Source: Actinomadura sp. BRA 177
Lineage (GTDB): Bacteria > Actinomycetota > Actinomycetes > Streptosporangiales > Streptosporangiaceae
Direction: 5' to 3'
Assembly: GCF_013372625.1 (NCBI RefSeq)
Contig: NZ_JABXFD010000264.1
Coordinates: 1 to 64,000 of the forward strand
DNA length: 64,000 nt
Below the pieces are notes generated by a model. It did not search any database. It saw only the letters and a program-made list of their open reading frames with translations, and was not told the DNA's origin. The position numbers and the translations under genes were made by a program. This document shows, one piece after another, positions 7,671 through 45,208 of the stretch (within the stretch, counting starts at the first letter, position 1; the number at the start of each line of letters is the position of its first letter).

Positions 7671-9456
7671 GCGTCGCCCCGAACATCGGCGAGTGCAGCT
7701 TCTTCAGCTCGCGGCCCTTGCCGAGGTACATGTGCACGCCGCACGGCAGGCACGGGTCGAAGCTGCGCACGGCGCGCATGATGTCGACGCCCCGGAAGTC
7801 GTCCGGCCCGTTCTCCTCGAAGATCGGCATGTCCTGGACGGCGTCCTCGTACGGGCCGGGCGTGCCGTACCTGTCGCGCGGGCTCGCGTTCCACGGCGTC
7901 GGCGGGTACGGGTGGTAGTTCGCGATCTTCTTGTCCTTGATGACGAGGTGGTGGGACAGCACGCCGCGCACCGCCTCGTGGAAGCCGCACCCGATGCCCT
8001 CGTCCGGCACCTCGAAGTCCTCGAAGACCTTCGTGTCGCCGCCGCGGACCCGGTCCATGGCCCGCTCCAGGAAGTACACCGCCATCGCCGCCGAGTAGGC
8101 GACGAAGTACGCCCGCGCCCGGTTGCGCTCGAGGGCGTTCGACCAGTCCGGGATCCGCCATTCGAGCGTCATCTCCGGCAGGCTCTGCCCCTTCGGCAGC
8201 GAGATCTGCACGCTGGACCCGGTCGACTTCACGTACGGGGTGTCGACCATGTTCGCCAGCGCCGTCGTGTACAGCCGCGCGAACGCGCCGCCGCCGGTGT
8301 CGAGCGCCAGGTGCTCCCGCGTGTCCGGGTTGAACCAGCGGGGGCTCATCACCCAGCTATACTTGTCGTCGAAGTCGCGCTTCTGCGGGACGGGCAGCGT
8401 CGTCTGGTTCCACGGGTGCCGCATGTCGATCGGGTTGCCGAGCGGGTCATGGGTGACGAACGGCTCCTCGTTCACCCAGTCGTCGTAGTAGGAGCTGCCC
8501 AGCAGGATGCGCATGCCGACGTTGATGTCGACCAGGTTCGTGGTGAGCAGCTTGCCGTCCACGACGATGCCGGGGGTGACGTACATGGCCTTGCCCCAGC
8601 GGTCCATGTTCTCGTACTTGTAGTCGACGACGTCGGGGTCCTGGAACGACCCCCAGCAGCCGAGCAGGATGCGGCGCCGGCCGACCTCCTCGTATCCGGG
8701 CAGCGCCTCGTAGAAGAAGTCGAAGACGTCGTCGTTCATCGCGACGGCCTTCTTGACGAAGTCGACGATGTGCATCAGCCGGGACAGGTAGTCGGTGAAC
8801 ACCGTGGGGTTCGGCATCGTCCCCACACCGCCCGGATAGACGGTGGACGGGTGCACGTGCCTGCCCTCCATCAGGCAGAACATCTCCCGCGTGGTGCGGC
8901 TGATCTGCAGCGCCTCTTTGTAGACCTCGCCCTCGAACGGGTTGAACGCCTCCATGATGTCGGCGATCGTCCGGTAGCCGTGGATGCCGGCGTTCGGTGC
9001 CTCGGTGTTCCTTGCCCGCTTCAGGACGCTCGGGTTCGTGTCCTTCACCATCGCCTCGCAGAAGTCCACGAAGACGAGGTTGTCCTGGAAGATCGTGTGG
9101 TCGAACATGTACTCGGCGGCCTCGCCGAGGTTGATGATCCACTCGGCCAGCGGCGGGTTCTTGATGCCGTAGGCCATGTTCTGCGCGTACACCGAGCACG
9201 TGGTGTGGTTGTCGCCGCAGATGCCGCAGATGCGGCTGGTGATGAACCCGGCGTCGCGCGGGTCCTTGCCCTTCATGAACACCGAGTAGCCGCGGAACAG
9301 CGACGACGTGCTGTGGCACTCGGCGACCTTCCGGTTGGCGAAGTCGATCTTGGTGTAGATGCCGAGGTTGCCGATGATGCGGGTGATCGGGTCCCACGAC
9401 ATCTCCACGAGCTGCCCCGGCTTCGTGCCGGCGGGCATCTGCTCGGTCGTTGCCAT
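7663..9456 (-). CDS. hhyL: Group 1h [NiFe]-hydrogenase large subunit
   Basis: A 597-aa catalytic subunit. The L1 motif RICGICGDNHTTC (Cys77, Cys80, His84) and the L2 motif DPCLPCGVH (Cys569, Cys572, His575) hold the NiFe site. The TSRICGICGDNH form points to group 1h, the high-affinity hydrogenases that let actinomycetes oxidise atmospheric H2. The 22 residues after His575 are the expected C-terminal peptide removed by the maturation protease encoded at 10899-11489. The ATG lies 47 nt after the small-subunit gene. The protein is intact at all key residues. Confidence 0.95.
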   Translation of the reverse strand: MATTEQMPAGTKPGQLVEMSWDPITRIIGNLGIYTKIDFANRKVAECHSTSSLFRGYSVFMKGKDPRDAGFITSRICGICGDNHTTCSVYAQNMAYGIKNPPLAEWIINLGEAAEYMFDHTIFQDNLVFVDFCEAMVKDTNPSVLKRARNTEAPNAGIHGYRTIADIMEAFNPFEGEVYKEALQISRTTREMFCLMEGRHVHPSTVYPGGVGTMPNPTVFTDYLSRLMHIVDFVKKAVAMNDDVFDFFYEALPGYEEVGRRRILLGCWGSFQDPDVVDYKYENMDRWGKAMYVTPGIVVDGKLLTTNLVDINVGMRILLGSSYYDDWVNEEPFVTHDPLGNPIDMRHPWNQTTLPVPQKRDFDDKYSWVMSPRWFNPDTREHLALDTGGGAFARLYTTALANMVDTPYVKSTGSSVQISLPKGQSLPEMTLEWRIPDWSNALERNRARAYFVAYSAAMAVYFLERAMDRVRGGDTKVFEDFEVPDEGIGCGFHEAVRGVLSHHLVIKDKKIANYHPYPPTPWNASPRDRYGTPGPYEDAVQDMPIFEENGPDDFRGVDIMRAVRSFDPCLPCGVHMYLGKGRELKKLHSPMFGATHG

Positions 9457-36572: not shown

Positions 36573-36720
36573 AGGACCGAGCTTGCTCGTTCGGTCCTTG
36601 GGGGCTTTGTTCACGCTCCCGACTGCCCGTTACGGCGGGGCGGTCACGGGTCGCATCCACCAGCCTCCTAGCTATGTGGGGGCGGGTTGGGGCATGTTGA
36701 CGAATACCCACGCCGAGCGT
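36556..36720 (-). ncRNA. Predicted TnpB guide (omega) RNA scaffold
   Basis: In IS605-group elements the tnpB 3' end and right end encode a guide RNA. Here the tnpB-sense strand past the stop codon can form two competing stems: AAGGACCGA with TCGGTCCTT (36572-36599) and CUCGGUCC with GGGCCGAG around 36562-36581, a pseudoknot-like layout. The guide would be read from the adjacent 3' end of the phosphopantetheinyl transferase gene. Boundaries are approximate; assignment by position and structure only. Confidence 0.4.
36564..36579 (-). repeat. IS right-end hairpin repeat
   Basis: CGGCCCTGAAGGACCG; on the tnpB-sense strand it folds as CGGUCC-UUCA-GGGCCG with a G-U pair, extendable to 8 bp. Identical over 16 bp to 37925-37940. 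It contains the stop codon of the phosphopantetheinyl transferase gene. Confidence 0.85.
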
Positions 36721-37850
36721 GCGCGGTCGCGCACGTTGACCCCGGCGACGACGTCGGCGGGCCCAGCGAGACCGCACCGACGACACTGAAAGTGATCCCG
36801 CGCAGAACGGTTGTTCCTGGCGCTGTGGCCGCAGCGCGGGCAGCGCTGCGAGGTGTAGGCCGGATCCACCTCGATGTACGGCACACCGTGGCGGCGGGCC
36901 TTGTAGGCGATGAAGGCGCCGAGTTGGTGGAAGGGCCAACAGGACAGGCGTGCCCGCTGGTCGCGAGGAACCGTGACCCGTCCGCGGATCCCACTCAGTT
37001 CTTCGAGCGCGATGCCGCGTCCGGTGCGTGCCGCGACGGCGACGACCTGCTTCGCGATCTTGTGGTTGACGTGCCGGGCGTGCCGCGCTTCGCGGCGAGC
37101 CCGCTTCTTCAGCAGCCGGGCGGCCGACCGGGTCCGCTTGGCCTGGATCTCGGCGCGTTTGCGGGCCTGCCAGTGCCGGTACCGGTCCAGGCGGCGGCCC
37201 TGATGGTTGTCGCCATCAGAGGTGGTGGCCAGGTTGACGATGCCGCGGTCCACCCCCACCCAGTCGGCAGGCTCGTACACCTGGGGTTCGGGGACGTCGC
37301 AGGTGGCGAGCAGGAACCATTTCCCGTCCCGGTGCACTAGGTCCGATTCACCTTTGCGGTGCGCGGCCAGGGTCTTGGCCTGGTCGGGTGAGCAGGCGAA
37401 CCGCAAGTTCTTGCACCGCCCGGCCACCGTCCAGAGGCTGACCGTGCCCGCGTCCAACTGCCACGACAGGCACCGGTCGTCGAAGGTGTGCGCGGCGTCC
37501 AGGCGGAACGCGATGGGTTTGGACTCGGCTTTGCGGCGGCGTTTGGAGGCCGGGCCGCCCAGGTTGCCGTTGCGGATACCGGCGCGGAGGGTGGTGTAGG
37601 CGTCCACGACGCGTTTGATCACGTGCTGGGCGGCCTGGGCGCCCAGCCCGCCGGCTTTGAGGTCGCCGTAGCACAGCGTCCGCAGGGGCAGTTCACGGCC
37701 GCGCAGCCCGAACTGGGCGAACGCCACGACCGCCACCTGGTTGGCGGCTGTGTTGACCTGGTGAAGGGTGTCGGTCAGCGCCGCCGCCTGCTCGGGCGTC
37801 GGCAGCAGCTTCACCTGCACCACCAATTTCACAGTCCGTGACTGTATCAT
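36672..37850 (-). CDS. tnpB: TnpB, RNA-guided nuclease of IS605-group element
   Basis: A 392-aa TnpB with an apparently intact RuvC centre: Asp201 (GVDRGIVN), Glu283 (ALEELSGIRG) and Asp366 (PADVVAGVN). The zinc finger is Cys337, Cys340, Cys356, Cys359. The arginine-rich helical part lies at about residues 216-265. TnpB proteins cut DNA next to a transposon-adjacent motif using the right-end guide RNA and are the ancestors of Cas12. No frameshift or early stop is seen, so activity is possible. Confidence 0.93.
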   Translation of the reverse strand: MIQSRTVKLVVQVKLLPTPEQAAALTDTLHQVNTAANQVAVVAFAQFGLRGRELPLRTLCYGDLKAGGLGAQAAQHVIKRVVDAYTTLRAGIRNGNLGGPASKRRRKAESKPIAFRLDAAHTFDDRCLSWQLDAGTVSLWTVAGRCKNLRFACSPDQAKTLAAHRKGESDLVHRDGKWFLLATCDVPEPQVYEPADWVGVDRGIVNLATTSDGDNHQGRRLDRYRHWQARKRAEIQAKRTRSAARLLKKRARREARHARHVNHKIAKQVVAVAARTGRGIALEELSGIRGRVTVPRDQRARLSCWPFHQLGAFIAYKARRHGVPYIEVDPAYTSQRCPRCGHSARNNRSARDHFQCRRCGLAGPADVVAGVNVRDRARSAWVFVNMPQPAPT

Positions 37851-38838: not shown

Positions 38839-38882
38839 GCCTCATGAGCTTAGTGGGACCCATCTCCCGGTACCTTCTTCGC

Positions 38883-39800
38883 GTGGCTGTTTGGGCGAGG
38901 TTGAAGGCGCGCCCCGACGAGGGGGCGGACGGCGGCGGGCGCCGCCGCGGGCTGTGGTGGGCCGTGGGCCTGGCCGTCGTGGTGATGCTGGTGGTCGTCG
39001 GCGGGTTCGCGCTGTTCGACCGCGCCCAGCCGTACCTGCACGGGTCCGGCTGCGAGGTGCGGACGGCCCAAGGGACGATGCCGCTCGACCTGGAGCAGGC
39101 CGCCAACGCCTCGACGATCGCCGCGGTGGCGTTCCGCAAGCAGCTGCCCGAACGTGCGGCGGTGATCGCCTACGCGACCGCGATCCAGGAGTCGCACATC
39201 CGCAACCTGCCTGGCGGCGACCGCGATTCGGTCGGCATGTTCCAGCAGCGCCCCTCGCAGGGCTGGGGCACCCCGGACAAGCTCCGCGACCCCGTCCTGG
39301 CGACGAGCAAGTTCTTCGACGCCCTGGTGCGCATCAAGGACTACCTCGACCGCGACCTGCACGACGCCGCGCAGCTGGTGCAGCGCAGCGCGGACGGCAC
39401 CGCCTACGCCCAGCACGAGCAGGACGGCAAGCTGCTGGCGACCGCGTTCACGGGCCGCGAGCCGGCGTCCGCGCGCTGCTGGTTCCCGCCCGACAAGCGC
39501 ACCGCGTCCCGCCGCCCGGAGGCGATCCGCGAGATGCGCCGCGCCTTCGGCAGCCGCCTCAAGGTCGGCGGCCCGAGCCCGCTGACCAAGGGCGCGAAGT
39601 CCGACCCGGACTCCTGGAACGCGGTGAAGGCGTCCAGCACCCGCGAGGGCTGGGCCGTCGCGTCCTGGGCCGTCACCCACGCCCAGGTCTACGGCCTCAC
39701 CGAGATCCGCTACGCCGGCAAGCACTGGAAATCCGACGCCGGCCACGACGGCTGGACCGAGGACAAGGACGCCCCAAAGGACTCCGTAATCGTCCAGTGA
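38883..39800 (+). CDS. Membrane-anchored lysozyme-like/uncharacterised protein
   Basis: A 305-aa protein with one N-terminal membrane helix (about residues 22-47, LWWAVGLAVVVMLVVVGGFAL) and an extracellular domain. ATAIQESHIRNLPGGDRDSVGMFQQRPSQGWG resembles the catalytic Glu and GxFQ region of transglycosylase/lysozyme-like folds, and FPPDKRTASRRPEAIREMRRAFGSRL follows. GTG at 38883 is chosen so that the anchor lies near the N-terminus; GTG at 38844 would add 13 residues. Cell-wall hydrolysis is an inference from the fold-like motif. Confidence 0.7.
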   Translation: MAVWARLKARPDEGADGGGRRRGLWWAVGLAVVVMLVVVGGFALFDRAQPYLHGSGCEVRTAQGTMPLDLEQAANASTIAAVAFRKQLPERAAVIAYATAIQESHIRNLPGGDRDSVGMFQQRPSQGWGTPDKLRDPVLATSKFFDALVRIKDYLDRDLHDAAQLVQRSADGTAYAQHEQDGKLLATAFTGREPASARCWFPPDKRTASRRPEAIREMRRAFGSRLKVGGPSPLTKGAKSDPDSWNAVKASSTREGWAVASWAVTHAQVYGLTEIRYAGKHWKSDAGHDGWTEDKDAPKDSVIVQ

Positions 39801-39839: not shown

Positions 39840-42314
39840 ATGTCGGTGGTCTCCAGTAAGAATGAGGTCGTGACGTCCAGATTCCAGGGGCCCCTAGAGG
39901 ACGAGACCTGCCGCCGCTTCGTGTTGCCCGCCCTGGAACGGGCGGGCTGGCAAGAGGACCAGATCACCGGCCAGTACCCGATCAACCGGGGCCGGATCCG
40001 CGCCACCGCACGGCGCCATCGTCAGGACAAGCCGCTGAAAGCGGACTACCTCCTGGAGTACTCGGACGGGCTGCCGCTCGCCGTCATCGAGGCCAAGCGG
40101 TCCCGCAGAGATCCAGCGGACGGCTTCGAGCAGGTCAAGAGGTACGCCGAGTTACTGGACGTGCCGTTCGCCTACACGACGAACGGCCACCAGATCTTTG
40201 AACTGGACGCACGCACCGGCCACCTGAACGAGATCCAGGAGTTCCCAAGTCCCGAGGAGCTCTGGGCGCGCTACCGGCAAGACCGCGACCTCACGGACGA
40301 CGGGCAGGCCACCCTGGCCTCGGCACCGTTCAACTCGCGCTCGCGGAACTGGGACGGCAGCTTCAAAGATCCGCGCTACTACCAGCGCGTTGCGATCAAC
40401 AGGACGGTCCAGGCCATCGCGCGCGGCGACACGCGCATGCTGCTCGTCCTTGCCACGGGGACGGGCAAGACCCTCGTCGCCTCACAGATCGTCGCCAAGC
40501 TGTGGAACGCGAACTGGCCGCGCGGACGCAGGCCGCGAGTCCTCTACCTGGCCGACCGCAACATCCTGATCGATCAGCCCAAGGACGACTACTTCCAGCC
40601 GATGTTCGGTGAAGCCGTCCACAAGCTCGGTGGCGGCGAGGCGAAAACAGGACGGCACATCTACCTCGGCCTCTACCAGTCGCTCGACAGCAGCCGCGAC
40701 GAAGAGAGCCTCTACCGACAGTACGAGCCCGGCTACTTCGACCTCGTGATCGTGGATGAGTGCCACCGCGGCAGTGCGAGCGAGAACTCCCACTGGCGCA
40801 AGGTCCTTGAATACTTCTCCCCCGCCGTGCAGATCGGCCTGACCGCCACGCCGGTCATCGGCAAGGACACCGACACCTACGGCTACTTCGGCGAACCGCT
40901 GTACGAGTACACGCTGGCACGCGGCATCGACGACGGTTTCCTGGCCCCCTACCGGGTCCGCAAGGTGCGGCTGAACGTCGACATGACGGGCTGGCGCCCC
41001 GACCCGGGTCAAGCGGACCTCCTCGGCCGGGAGATCCCGGACAAGCTCTACGGCCCCAGGGAGTACGAGCGGGTCCTGGCCATCCTCGACCGGACCGAGG
41101 AGGCCGCCCGCTACCTCACCGACTACCTGCACCGGACGGGCAGGATGGGCAAGACGATCGTCTTCTGCGCGAACACCGACCACGCGTTCCGGATGACGAA
41201 GGCGCTGCACAACGCCAACGCCGACCTCGTCCGGCGCCACGGCTCAACCTATGCGTGCCGGATCACCGCGGCGGACGGCGACGCGGGCCGGGAGCGCCTG
41301 GACGAGTTCCGGCAGGTCGATTCCGACGTACCGGTCATCGCGGTAACGTCCCGGCTGCTCTCGACCGGCGTGGACATCCCGACCCTCCGCAACATCGTGC
41401 TGTTCCGCGTGATCAGGTCGATGCCGGAGTTCAAGCAGATCATCGGACGCGGCACCCGGATCTTCCGCGAGGACGGGAAGCTGTCGTTCGACATCATCGA
41501 CTTCGTGGAGGCGACGCGGCTGTTCAACGACCTCGAGTTCGACGGCCCGCCGATGCGGGTCGTGCGGGACGAGACCGACGCCGAAGGCAACATCGCCGAC
41601 ACCGTCAACGAGGACGTCCCCGGCGATGACGAAGAGATGGTCGCCGAACCCGAGGGCGAGTACACGCAGGAGGACGGCGGGACGCTCCCTCCGCTCGTCA
41701 CCGACCCGGACGAGGTCGACGACATCCTCGCCAACCCGCGCACCTTCTACGTGGACGGCGTCCAGGTGACGCCGTGGGGCAGCGCACTGTACGTGTCGGA
41801 GCCCAGCACCGACGGGACGCGGCTGCGTCTCGTCGAGTACGAGCAGTTCGTCCGCGACCGGATCCTCAAACTGAACCTGGAGCCGCACCAGTTGCTCGGC
41901 GAGTGGGCACAGGCGCAGGGCCGGCGGGCGCTGCGTGAGCGGCTGGACGAGAGCCACATCGCCACAGAGGACCTCGCGGAGTGGGCGGGCAGGCCGGACG
42001 CCGACACGATCGACCTGCTGATGTACCTGGCCTGGGAACTGCCGCTGATGTCGCGCTCGGAGCGGGCACGCCGGGTCGCCGTACGCCACCGCGACTTCCT
42101 GGAGTCGTTCGCGCCCGAGGCGCGGGAGGTGCTCGACAGGGTCCTCGAACAGTACGCCGAGCGCGGCGCCGAGGAGTTGGAGATCGGGGCGCTGCGCTCG
42201 AACGCCTACGAGGATCTCGGCAATGTCCTGGAGATCAGCGAGCGCTTCGGTGGGCGCGACCGCCTGCGCGGCGTGTTGGACGAGTTGAACGCACTCGTCT
42301 ACGAAGCTTCCTGA
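39840..42314 (+). CDS. hsdR: Type I restriction enzyme subunit R (HsdR)
   Basis: An 824-aa translocase-nuclease. The N-terminal PD-(D/E)xK-type nuclease site is ADYLLEY and LAVIEAKR (about residues 68-88). Walker A LATGTGKT, the DECH box (VDECHRG), LTATP and the C-terminal helicase motif (SRLLSTGVDIPTLRN, IIGRGTR) are intact. Length fits the EcoEI/type IB-like HsdR group. The start is uncertain: ATG 39840 or GTG 39870. It is the first gene of the restriction locus; the methylase gene downstream is damaged, which should be harmful if HsdR were active without it. Confidence 0.93.
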   Translation: MSVVSSKNEVVTSRFQGPLEDETCRRFVLPALERAGWQEDQITGQYPINRGRIRATARRHRQDKPLKADYLLEYSDGLPLAVIEAKRSRRDPADGFEQVKRYAELLDVPFAYTTNGHQIFELDARTGHLNEIQEFPSPEELWARYRQDRDLTDDGQATLASAPFNSRSRNWDGSFKDPRYYQRVAINRTVQAIARGDTRMLLVLATGTGKTLVASQIVAKLWNANWPRGRRPRVLYLADRNILIDQPKDDYFQPMFGEAVHKLGGGEAKTGRHIYLGLYQSLDSSRDEESLYRQYEPGYFDLVIVDECHRGSASENSHWRKVLEYFSPAVQIGLTATPVIGKDTDTYGYFGEPLYEYTLARGIDDGFLAPYRVRKVRLNVDMTGWRPDPGQADLLGREIPDKLYGPREYERVLAILDRTEEAARYLTDYLHRTGRMGKTIVFCANTDHAFRMTKALHNANADLVRRHGSTYACRITAADGDAGRERLDEFRQVDSDVPVIAVTSRLLSTGVDIPTLRNIVLFRVIRSMPEFKQIIGRGTRIFREDGKLSFDIIDFVEATRLFNDLEFDGPPMRVVRDETDAEGNIADTVNEDVPGDDEEMVAEPEGEYTQEDGGTLPPLVTDPDEVDDILANPRTFYVDGVQVTPWGSALYVSEPSTDGTRLRLVEYEQFVRDRILKLNLEPHQLLGEWAQAQGRRALRERLDESHIATEDLAEWAGRPDADTIDLLMYLAWELPLMSRSERARRVAVRHRDFLESFAPEAREVLDRVLEQYAERGAEELEIGALRSNAYEDLGNVLEISERFGGRDRLRGVLDELNALVYEAS

Positions 42315-42400
42315 TACTAAAGCTCGCTTTTAGGTTGATGCACCCATCACGCACCAAACTAAAACTGACTATAAGTAGTGATCACGATAGGCTGCCTCGT

Positions 42401-42690
42401 ATGCGGCAGCGGGAAGCGGAACCCCGCGCCCGGTTGTGGCGCCGGGCGGCGCGTCAGCGTGGCTACTTCACCGCCGCCCAGGCACTTGAGGACGGCTACT
42501 CCTACCAGGCGCAGCACTTCCATGTCCGGCGCGGCAACTGGACGCGCGTCGACCGCGGGATCTACCGCTTCCGCGAGTTCGCAGACCTCCCGGCCGGCGA
42601 GAACGACCACCTCGCCCGCTGGACGCTCTGGAGCCGGGGCCTGGCGGTCGTGTCGCACTCGACCGCACTGGGCGTCCACGGCCTGGTTGG
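42401..42690 (+). pseudogene. AbiEi-like antitoxin domain gene, 3'-truncated
   Basis: The first about 95 codons match the type IV antitoxin AbiEi N-terminal region: RLWRRAARQRGYFTAAQALEDGYSYQAQHFHVRRGNW, RVDRGIYRF, and AVVSHSTALGVHGL. At about 42676-42690 homology stops abruptly and the following DNA is hsdM in another frame. The AbiEi frame runs on to 42766 in meaningless sequence. No AbiEii nucleotidyltransferase toxin is present. A deletion that fused the two genes explains this best. Confidence 0.75.
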
Positions 42691-44066
42691 ACCGGCTCCC
42701 TCTGCTGTCATGGCTGCTGTTCCTGCGTGCCTTCGACGCCCTGGAGAAGCAGCGCGCCGCGTATGAGGACGATTTCCGGCCCGCGATCGCCCCCGAGTAC
42801 CAGTGGAGCAATTGGGCCAAGGACGAGAACTTCACCGGCCCGGAACTCCTCAAGTTCGTCAACGAAAGGCTGCTGCCCTACCTCAGCGGCCTCAAAAGCA
42901 ACGAGTCGGGCGACCCGCGCAACGTGCTCGGCCAGGTCTTCAGCGGCATCCAGAACCGCATCGCCTCCGGTTATCTCCTCCGCGATCTCCTCAACCAGAT
43001 CAAGAAGATCGACTTCACGTTCAGCGACGACATCCACACGATGGCGTTCCTGTACGAGTCGCTTCTCAAGGAAGTGCGAGACGCAGCCGGCGACTCCGGC
43101 GAGTTCTACACCCCGCGTCCGGTCATCCGTTTCATGGTCGAGCAGACGTTCCTGGAACTCGGCGAGACGATCCTCGACCCTGCCTGTGGCACCGGAGGCT
43201 TCCTGGTGGAGGCTTACACCGAGCTCACCAAGGATCGTAAGCTGGGCATCCTGCAACAAACGCGTCTCTGGCGAAGCCTGCGAGGCTACGAAAAGAAGTC
43301 GCTCCCGTACCTGCTCTGCATGATGAACCTGATCCTGCACGGCGTGACGGAACCCAACATCCTGCACACCAACGCACTCCGCCACATGCTGGACGAAACA
43401 GGCCCCAGCAGCCGCGTGGACGTGATCCTCACCAACCCGCCCTTCGGCGGCGAAGAGGAAAGTTCGATCGCCAAGGCTTTCCCAAAGGGCTACCAGACCC
43501 AGGAAACAGCCTGGCTCTTCTTGCAATCGGTAATCAAGAAGCTCAAGAACAATGGCCGGTGCGCCATCGTCCTGCCCAATGGCGCCCTGTTCGGTGAAGG
43601 CATCGGCACAAAGATCAAGAAGAAGCTTCTAGACGAGTGCAACCTGCACACCATCGTCCGCCTACCCCAAGGCGTCTTCGCCCCCTACACCCAGATTCCG
43701 GCGAACCTCTTGTTCTTCGACAAGACCGGCCCCACCAAGGAGACCTGGTTCTACCGGGTCAACCCACCCGAGGGCCGCAAGGGCTACGCGAAAACCAGGC
43801 CCCTGCGCTACGAGGAATTCGCCGAATGCACCGAATGGTGGGGCGGCAAAGAGTGCGCCGACCGAGTGGAGACAGAACACGCATGGCGCGTTCCCATCGC
43901 CGATATCGTCGCCAACAACTACAACCTCAACCTCACAAACCCCGAGGAAGAGGACGGCCTGTCCCACCGCCCGCCGGGCGAACTACTCAAAGAATTGATC
44001 TCTACCGAGAACGAGATCCTCGCTCTCCTCTCCTCCCTCGAGCATAGCCTGAAGGAAAACAAGTGA
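42687..44066 (+). pseudogene. hsdM: Type I methylase subunit HsdM, 5'-truncated
   Basis: From LPLLSWLLFLRAFDALEKQ onward, about 455 residues of a type I N6-adenine methylase are intact: GEFYTPRPV, motif I DPACGTGGF, motif IV NPPFGG, and the C-terminal target-subunit contact region. The N-terminal segment before the first helix is missing and is replaced by the AbiEi fragment. The only in-frame start at the junction is TTG 42687; translation might also begin upstream through the fused DNA. Whether methylation activity survives is uncertain. GC content falls through the gene toward hsdS. Confidence 0.8.
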
Positions 44067-45208
44067 ATATGTATCCCGAGATAGCTCTCGGCGAGTTTAT
44101 TGATCTCGACGTCGATGCCGAATCTGTCGATCCAGATAAGACCTACACCACCGCCGGCATCTATTCCTATGGAAGAGGGCTTTTCAGGCGCGCAACCATC
44201 CTCGGCTCGGAAACGAAATACTCCAGGTACACCAAACTTCACGAAGGGCAATTCGTCTACAGCAAGCTCTTCGGTTGGGAAGGCGCGCTGGCAACGGTCG
44301 AGAAGGAGTTTGACGGGCTCTACGTGTCCCACGAGTTCCCAACGTTCACCATTAAGGCAACGGTCGCCGATCTTTCCTACGTCCGACATCTGGCTCGCTG
44401 GGAAGGGCTGCACGCCAAGCTTCGCGACAAGGGAACCGGAATGGGTTCCCGGAGACAGCGCGTCAATATCGACCGCCTCCTGGCAACCACGGTCCCGCTG
44501 CCGGATGTGGAGGAGCAGCGCCGCATCGCCGCCCGCCTGGACTCGACAACTCAAAGACTCTCGCTCGTCCGCGAAAGTCGGGAGCGTGCCGACCAGCTCA
44601 ACAATGCCATAAAGGATTCGATCATTCACCAAGAGGAAGCCAGTCCACTGACGAGACTCGGCGACATTCTCACTCTTGAGAGAATTCCCCTGGACATTGA
44701 CTCTGAATGTGAGTATACACAGATCGGCATACGATCTTTCGGGAACGGGATCTTCCATCGCGACAAACTTCCGGGCCGAGAACTCAGCAAGCTTAAGTAT
44801 TTCTGGATACAACCGGACCGGCTAGTTGTGAGCAACATCATGGCATGGGAGGGCGCAATTGCCATCTCCACAGACGCAGATCAAGGATGTGTTGGCTCCA
44901 GTCGATTTCTAAGCTTCATCCCATCCGACAACACCGATCTGCGATACTTGAACTACTATTTTCAGAGCGGATCAGGCCGAAGTATTGTCCGCAACACATC
45001 AACCGGGACAGTTCTCAGAAATCAGACTATTTCAGTAAGTAAGTTCGAGAACATATGTATTCCACTGCCGGACCTACCCAAGCAGCAGCAGGTCGCCAAC
45101 TTCCTCGACGAATGCGCACTAATAGGCAGAGCTGCACAGGCTCAACTGCCCACCGCATCGGCTCTAAGACAGTCTTTCCTGCATGCTGCATTTAGCGGGG
45201 AGCTCTGA
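44063..45208 (+). CDS. hsdS: Type I specificity subunit HsdS
   Basis: A 381-aa protein with two target-recognition domains, each followed by a conserved helix region (VPLPDVEEQRRIAARLD at about 150 and IPLPDLPKQQQVANFLD at about 335). GTG at 44063 overlaps the hsdM stop (GTGA) and has AAGGA 6 nt upstream; ATG 44069 is the alternative. The DNA is clearly richer in A and T than its neighbours, a usual sign of recent acquisition of specificity genes. The gene is intact. Confidence 0.9.
   Translation: MNMYPEIALGEFIDLDVDAESVDPDKTYTTAGIYSYGRGLFRRATILGSETKYSRYTKLHEGQFVYSKLFGWEGALATVEKEFDGLYVSHEFPTFTIKATVADLSYVRHLARWEGLHAKLRDKGTGMGSRRQRVNIDRLLATTVPLPDVEEQRRIAARLDSTTQRLSLVRESRERADQLNNAIKDSIIHQEEASPLTRLGDILTLERIPLDIDSECEYTQIGIRSFGNGIFHRDKLPGRELSKLKYFWIQPDRLVVSNIMAWEGAIAISTDADQGCVGSSRFLSFIPSDNTDLRYLNYYFQSGSGRSIVRNTSTGTVLRNQTISVSKFENICIPLPDLPKQQQVANFLDECALIGRAAQAQLPTASALRQSFLHAAFSGEL

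Follow-up and report, generated by a model that had tools for sequence, protein, structure and literature searches.

Here we describe a type I restriction-modification locus of Actinomadura sp. BRA 177 in which the first part of abiEi, an abortive-infection antitoxin gene, passes directly into the body of hsdM in another reading frame. Our reading, to which we give a probability of roughly 0.9, is that the locus is a five-gene defence operon broken by one deletion of about 1.29 kb, and that the cell is now r-m- without toxicity. The sequence comparisons below identify the unusual join as what a deletion of about 1.3 kb left behind, a case of ordinary decay. The value of this scar lies in what it exposes: an AbiE toxin-antitoxin pair set within a type I operon and equipped with a conserved predicted operator of its own, an arrangement that spans Actinomycetota, Planctomycetota and Nitrospirota and in which the toxin has repeatedly been lost. 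Alongside PrrC and DarTG2/RptR, it offers a testable case of a toxin-antitoxin pair that may control or guard a restriction system, and the loci of one genus form a natural series of decay stages.

Results

The locus and its intact genes

The window, by which we mean the whole stretch of 64,000 nucleotides that was analysed, comes from an 8.03-Mb draft genome of 735 contigs. The features of the locus, all on the forward strand, are as follows.

39840..42314 (+): hsdR, intact; type I restriction subunit of the EcoAI/FtnUII family, 824 codons
42329..42363 (+): predicted AbiEi operator dyad, TTTAGGTT-n19-AAACTAAA, 37 bp before abiEi; 15 of 16 positions equal the family dyad
42370..42375 (+): TATAAG next to the dyad's right arm, a putative -10 element proposed from conservation
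42401..42766 (+): what remains of abiEi; 95 codons of its own (winged-HTH region), then 26 out-of-frame codons read from hsdM DNA
42685..42687 (+): deletion junction; intact relatives have 1,292-1,299 bp extra at this point
42687..44066 (+): hsdM without its first 35 codons; 459 codons remain, with catalytic motifs DPACGTGGF and NPPF present
44063..45208 (+): hsdS, intact, 381 aa, with a 4-nt overlap between its start and the hsdM stop

As the original prediction held, HsdR and HsdS are intact. HsdR has the helicase and nuclease domains of a functional type I system, passes the equivalog cutoff of NF046051 (EcoAI-type HsdR) with 859 bits against a cutoff of 550, and is 81% identical to the HsdR of both Actinomadura sp. 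KC345 and Spirillospora albida; the closest relatives of the locus belong to Actinomadura and Spirillospora. HsdS likewise has the two target recognition domains of a functional system. It is 62% identical to the HsdS of a third species of the genus (locus L124) and just 35% identical to that of KC345 (L022), despite these loci having near-neighbour HsdMs, and because the identities differ in this way the hsdS target domains have probably been exchanged. A TnpB/OrfB-like protein of the IS605 kind (PF07282, PF01385) is encoded 2 kb upstream of the hsd locus, at 36675-37850 on the reverse strand.

The junction between abiEi and hsdM

The abiEi gene starts at ATG 42401 and shows 84-86% DNA identity to the abiEi genes of KC345 and S. 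albida (L023) until 42684-42686, after which its frame runs into an unrelated tail and ends at TGA 42764-42766. Homology to hsdM begins at 42687, in the +1 frame and at codon 36 of the intact relatives. The passage of abiEi into hsdM in another frame and the loss of the hsdM start, both noted from the DNA beforehand, are thus borne out. The AbiEi remnant scores 6.8e-37 against the PADLOC AbiEi models and the window HsdM 2.9e-66 against N6_Mtase, so these resemblances are not due to chance. What is left of AbiEi is the N-terminal winged helix-turn-helix (PF13338 at residues 15-57); the C-terminal antitoxin domain that belongs to an AbiE system is gone past residue 95. HsdM, too, falls short of a complete protein with HsdM_N, N6_Mtase and a translation start, its HsdM_N score being 23.2 against a cutoff of 24.5. 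In the hsdM frame, start codons are limited to TTG 42687 and the out-of-context GTG 42378, GTG 42459, TTG 42486 and ATG 42522, which sit within or shortly before abiEi.

A shortened HsdM might nonetheless be made, from TTG 42687, from one of the in-frame starts upstream or by +1 frameshifting from abiEi, and the type I system might still work. The hsdM body reads through without stops and retains its catalytic motifs, no relaxed selection is detectable on it, and the predicted operator dyad and -10-like element are kept upstream. However, we see no Shine-Dalgarno-like sequence before TTG 42687, and the lost N-terminus holds eight residues (L15, R23, M26, R27, D29, G31, L32 and N33) that do not vary among 20 homologues drawn from several phyla. 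In a model of the intact HsdM, helix 1 comprises residues 11-30, so that all of it would fall within the lost part. AlphaFold2 gives the shortened protein a mean pLDDT of 63.3 and the protein of an intact relative 78.7, a comparison that is weak evidence and no test of folding. In PacII, mutations of the N-terminal domain at the M1-M2 interface reduce methylation (PMC9613975), which by analogy would also speak against a working protein. We regard a working shortened HsdM as improbable.

The hsdR, hsdM and hsdS frames of the window are free of stops. Pairwise dN/dS of the window HsdM is 0.15-0.18 against three intact relatives and 0.10-0.18 among those relatives, which are distant ones; the values being alike, decay after the deletion is not detectable. 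On relaxed selection after the deletion, pairwise dN/dS and the branch-unique changes give no clear signal either way, the relatives being too distant. Clean frames together with a dN/dS that shows no relaxation suggest that the deletion is recent or, less likely, that the shortened HsdM still works.

Sizing the deletion against intact relatives

The gene order hsdR-abiEi-abiEii-hsdM-hsdS is found in Actinomadura sp. KC345, in S. albida and in the third species of the genus. Comparison with intact relatives, which had been proposed as a means of sizing the deletion, shows the window to be shorter by one segment, of 1,299 bp against KC345, 1,292 bp against S. albida and 1,297 bp against L124. 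The segment comprises the C-terminal half of AbiEi, the whole AbiEii toxin (288 aa in S. albida, PF08843 at 3.1e-33) and the first 35 residues of HsdM. A short direct repeat, CGACCTGG, is present at both breakpoints in L124; a clean collapse of this repeat was rejected as the route of the deletion because 4 extra nucleotides are retained in the scar.

That the junction is an assembly join had been raised at the outset, either as distant pieces brought together or as 1.3 kb dropped, and a draft of 735 contigs gives some ground for the concern. We consider it very unlikely. The junction lies inside a contig of 88 kb, both of its flanks run colinear with those of intact relatives that occupy the same site on the chromosome, and deletions occur at the same place in other species. 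Moreover, protein and DNA searches of the rest of the assembly (G000) gave no match to the lost segment beyond a 31-bp chance hit, in runs whose control genomes matched at full length, both G059 and G056 when searched as protein and G059 when searched as DNA. By the same searches the AbiEii nucleotidyltransferase toxin that an AbiE system requires is absent from the window locus and from the entire assembly.

The chromosomal site within the genus

The hsd locus is flanked upstream by dapD and a 318-aa gene and downstream by a DUF397/XRE cluster, and the intact operons of KC345 and S. albida sit between the same neighbours. The 318-aa protein (38844-39797) has no Pfam match, and its gene adjoins dapD in 64 of 65 genus genomes; the site beside it holds an hsd locus, remnants of one, or nothing. 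At this site hsdR of L123 is gutted and hsdM is gone, beside an intact AbiEi and a toxin that breaks off after about 115 aa. L122 lacks hsd genes and encodes AbiEi together with a toxin from which an internal stretch has been deleted in frame. L137 retains a mere scrap of hsdR, and in L130, L132 and L133 the site is without hsd genes. Taken with the window, these varied states at one site amount to several decay stages within the genus. In L122 and L123 an intact AbiEi has outlasted hsdM and most or all of hsdR.

The intact nested operon and its predicted operator

Both AbiEi and AbiEii are present in 41 of 83 related loci, a frequency that is not unbiased as the loci were gathered by similarity to HsdM. 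The named phyla among the 41 are Actinomycetota (35), Planctomycetota (2) and Nitrospirota (2). In the intact relatives a complete toxin-antitoxin pair thus lies inside a complete hsd operon, and this nesting recurs across many genomes. The genes are tightly packed: in these 41 loci abiEi and abiEii overlap by a median of 4 nt, the distance from abiEii to hsdM has a median of 1 nt (middle half -4 to +5), and the sole real spacer is that between hsdR and abiEi, with a median of 83 nt. Translation of toxin and methylase is probably coupled in the intact relatives.

The spacer carries a dyad, TTTAGTTT-n19-AAACTAAA, mostly 37 bp upstream of abiEi, which is significant in 30 of 37 loci with the toxin-antitoxin pair and in 0 of 14 loci without it. 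This dyad gives the nested pair a dedicated predicted operator upstream. The window's TATAAG also occurs in L023 and L024, with TTGAAG in L022; a generic sigma-70 promoter scan found no promoter, so it is conservation that points to this putative -10 element. In Streptomyces sp. NBC_01549 (L045) the dyad is retained though abiE is gone; the family-wide dyad scan had ended short of it. S. agalactiae AbiEi is a repressor of the operon that encodes it and binds inverted repeats (PMC3985639), and because of this precedent control of the downstream hsdM and hsdS by AbiEi would be the natural inference for the intact relatives.

The original prediction had also offered a natural coupling of Abi control to restriction. 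At the level of the family, in the intact relatives, that suggestion stands; it fails for the junction itself, which is a deletion that removed the coupling. A selected, functional AbiEi-HsdM fusion would draw on the Abi and hsd genes being true neighbours in the relatives and on the probable coupling of toxin and methylase translation there. Against it, the AbiEi and HsdM parts do not share a reading frame, the AbiEi frame stopping at 42764, the junction is shared by none of the 65 genus genomes searched, and both the antitoxin domain and helix 1 of HsdM are missing. We find such a fusion barely credible.

Repeated loss of the toxin

On the HsdM tree we count at least seven events of toxin loss, a figure that depends on one quick tree: the window, L024 with L025, L035 (a frameshift), L039, L045, L048 and L080. 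AbiEi or its operator often survives the loss. L080 has a complete AbiEi beside a toxin reduced to its tail, and L024 keeps 157 AbiEi residues. In L045 (7829-7975) abiEi and abiEii are deleted, and the hsdM start is also lost: an in-frame TAG stands at 7929, and the first start codon, ATG 7971, lies about 25 residues in. The HsdR of L045 shares 97% identity with that of a strain whose operon is intact. Since hsdM follows directly on abiEii, a deletion that takes the toxin readily extends into hsdM.

Discussion

We propose that the ancestor of the window carried a type IV AbiE pair within an EcoAI-like type I operon, hsdR-abiEi-abiEii-hsdM-hsdS. A single deletion of about 1.29 kb brought codon 95 of abiEi up against codon 36 of hsdM. 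Lost with it were the AbiEi antitoxin domain, all of AbiEii, and the start of hsdM together with the part that encodes helix 1. The winged-HTH remnant has no toxin left to neutralise, and its repression is very probably lost too; S. agalactiae AbiEi fragments without the C-terminal domain are unstable and do not repress (PMC3985639), and for this reason the 95-residue remnant is probably inert. An active methylase is very probably not made, and HsdR without M2S would be inert, leaving the cell r-m- with no toxicity. A dead type I system is the likeliest outcome, in keeping with the silent system that was one of the options offered beforehand, and the loss of the HsdM start and helix 1 points that way.

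The same earlier reading had feared that an active nuclease without methylation would be toxic. This is contradicted by the enzymology: type I HsdR restricts solely within the R2M2S complex (PMC12707154, PMC12255303). Without HsdM, restriction would therefore go together with modification, which leaves no toxicity to account for.

The window resembles EcoAI-family (type IB-like) systems in an HsdR that passes NF046051, in the N6_Mtase motifs of HsdM and in the two target domains of HsdS; it differs in an hsdM without its first 35 codons, and its relatives differ in holding an AbiE pair between hsdR and hsdM. The intact relatives share with the AbiE type IV system (Dy et al. 2014, PMC3985639) a winged-HTH AbiEi whose gene overlaps that of a nucleotidyltransferase AbiEii, and a predicted inverted-repeat operator upstream. 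Unlike that system, the pair leads without a gap into hsdM and hsdS, the window keeps only the winged-HTH region of AbiEi, and the AbiE dyad described there is TGTTGCTTTTA-n27-TAAAAGCAACA, as against TTTAGTTT-n19-AAACTAAA in the hsd-nested family.

Toxins encoded within type I operons are known from earlier work. DarTG2 sits between hsdS and hsdR of an E. coli type I system, where RptR represses it (Zhang et al. 2025, PMC12255303); it is alike in being a toxin-antitoxin pair inside such an operon that has its own repressor and operator repeats, and unlike in its toxin pair, in its slot (hsdR-hsdM here) and in that here the antitoxin itself is the candidate repressor. The PrrC anticodon nuclease of EcoprrI, activated upon EcoPrrI inhibition (PMC12707154), is similarly a host-toxic effector encoded within a type IC operon, in this case by a single gene as opposed to the two-gene type IV AbiE pair. 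Among openly licensed papers, full-text searching turned up no account of an AbiE pair inside an hsd operon, and the arrangement is apparently both recurrent and undescribed.

For the intact relatives we tentatively suggest, at somewhat less than even odds, that AbiEi represses one internal promoter serving abiEi-abiEii-hsdM-hsdS, with hsdR upstream, so that the antitoxin level would set methylase expression while translation of toxin and methylase is coupled. The toxin would then serve as a guard set off by attack on, silencing of or loss of the locus, so that the pair makes the restriction-modification system addictive, and the toxin's recurrent loss, in some cases along with the start of hsdM, would amount to an escape from its hold.

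Among relatives outside Actinomycetota, the slot between hsdR and hsdM holds HicA (L074), a ThsB-like TIR protein (L098), an OLD/GajA-like ATPase (L092), a PLD protein (L100), DUF6119 (L066) or DUF4238 (L071). With other cargo in the slot elsewhere, AbiE is the common actinobacterial occupant of a cargo slot.
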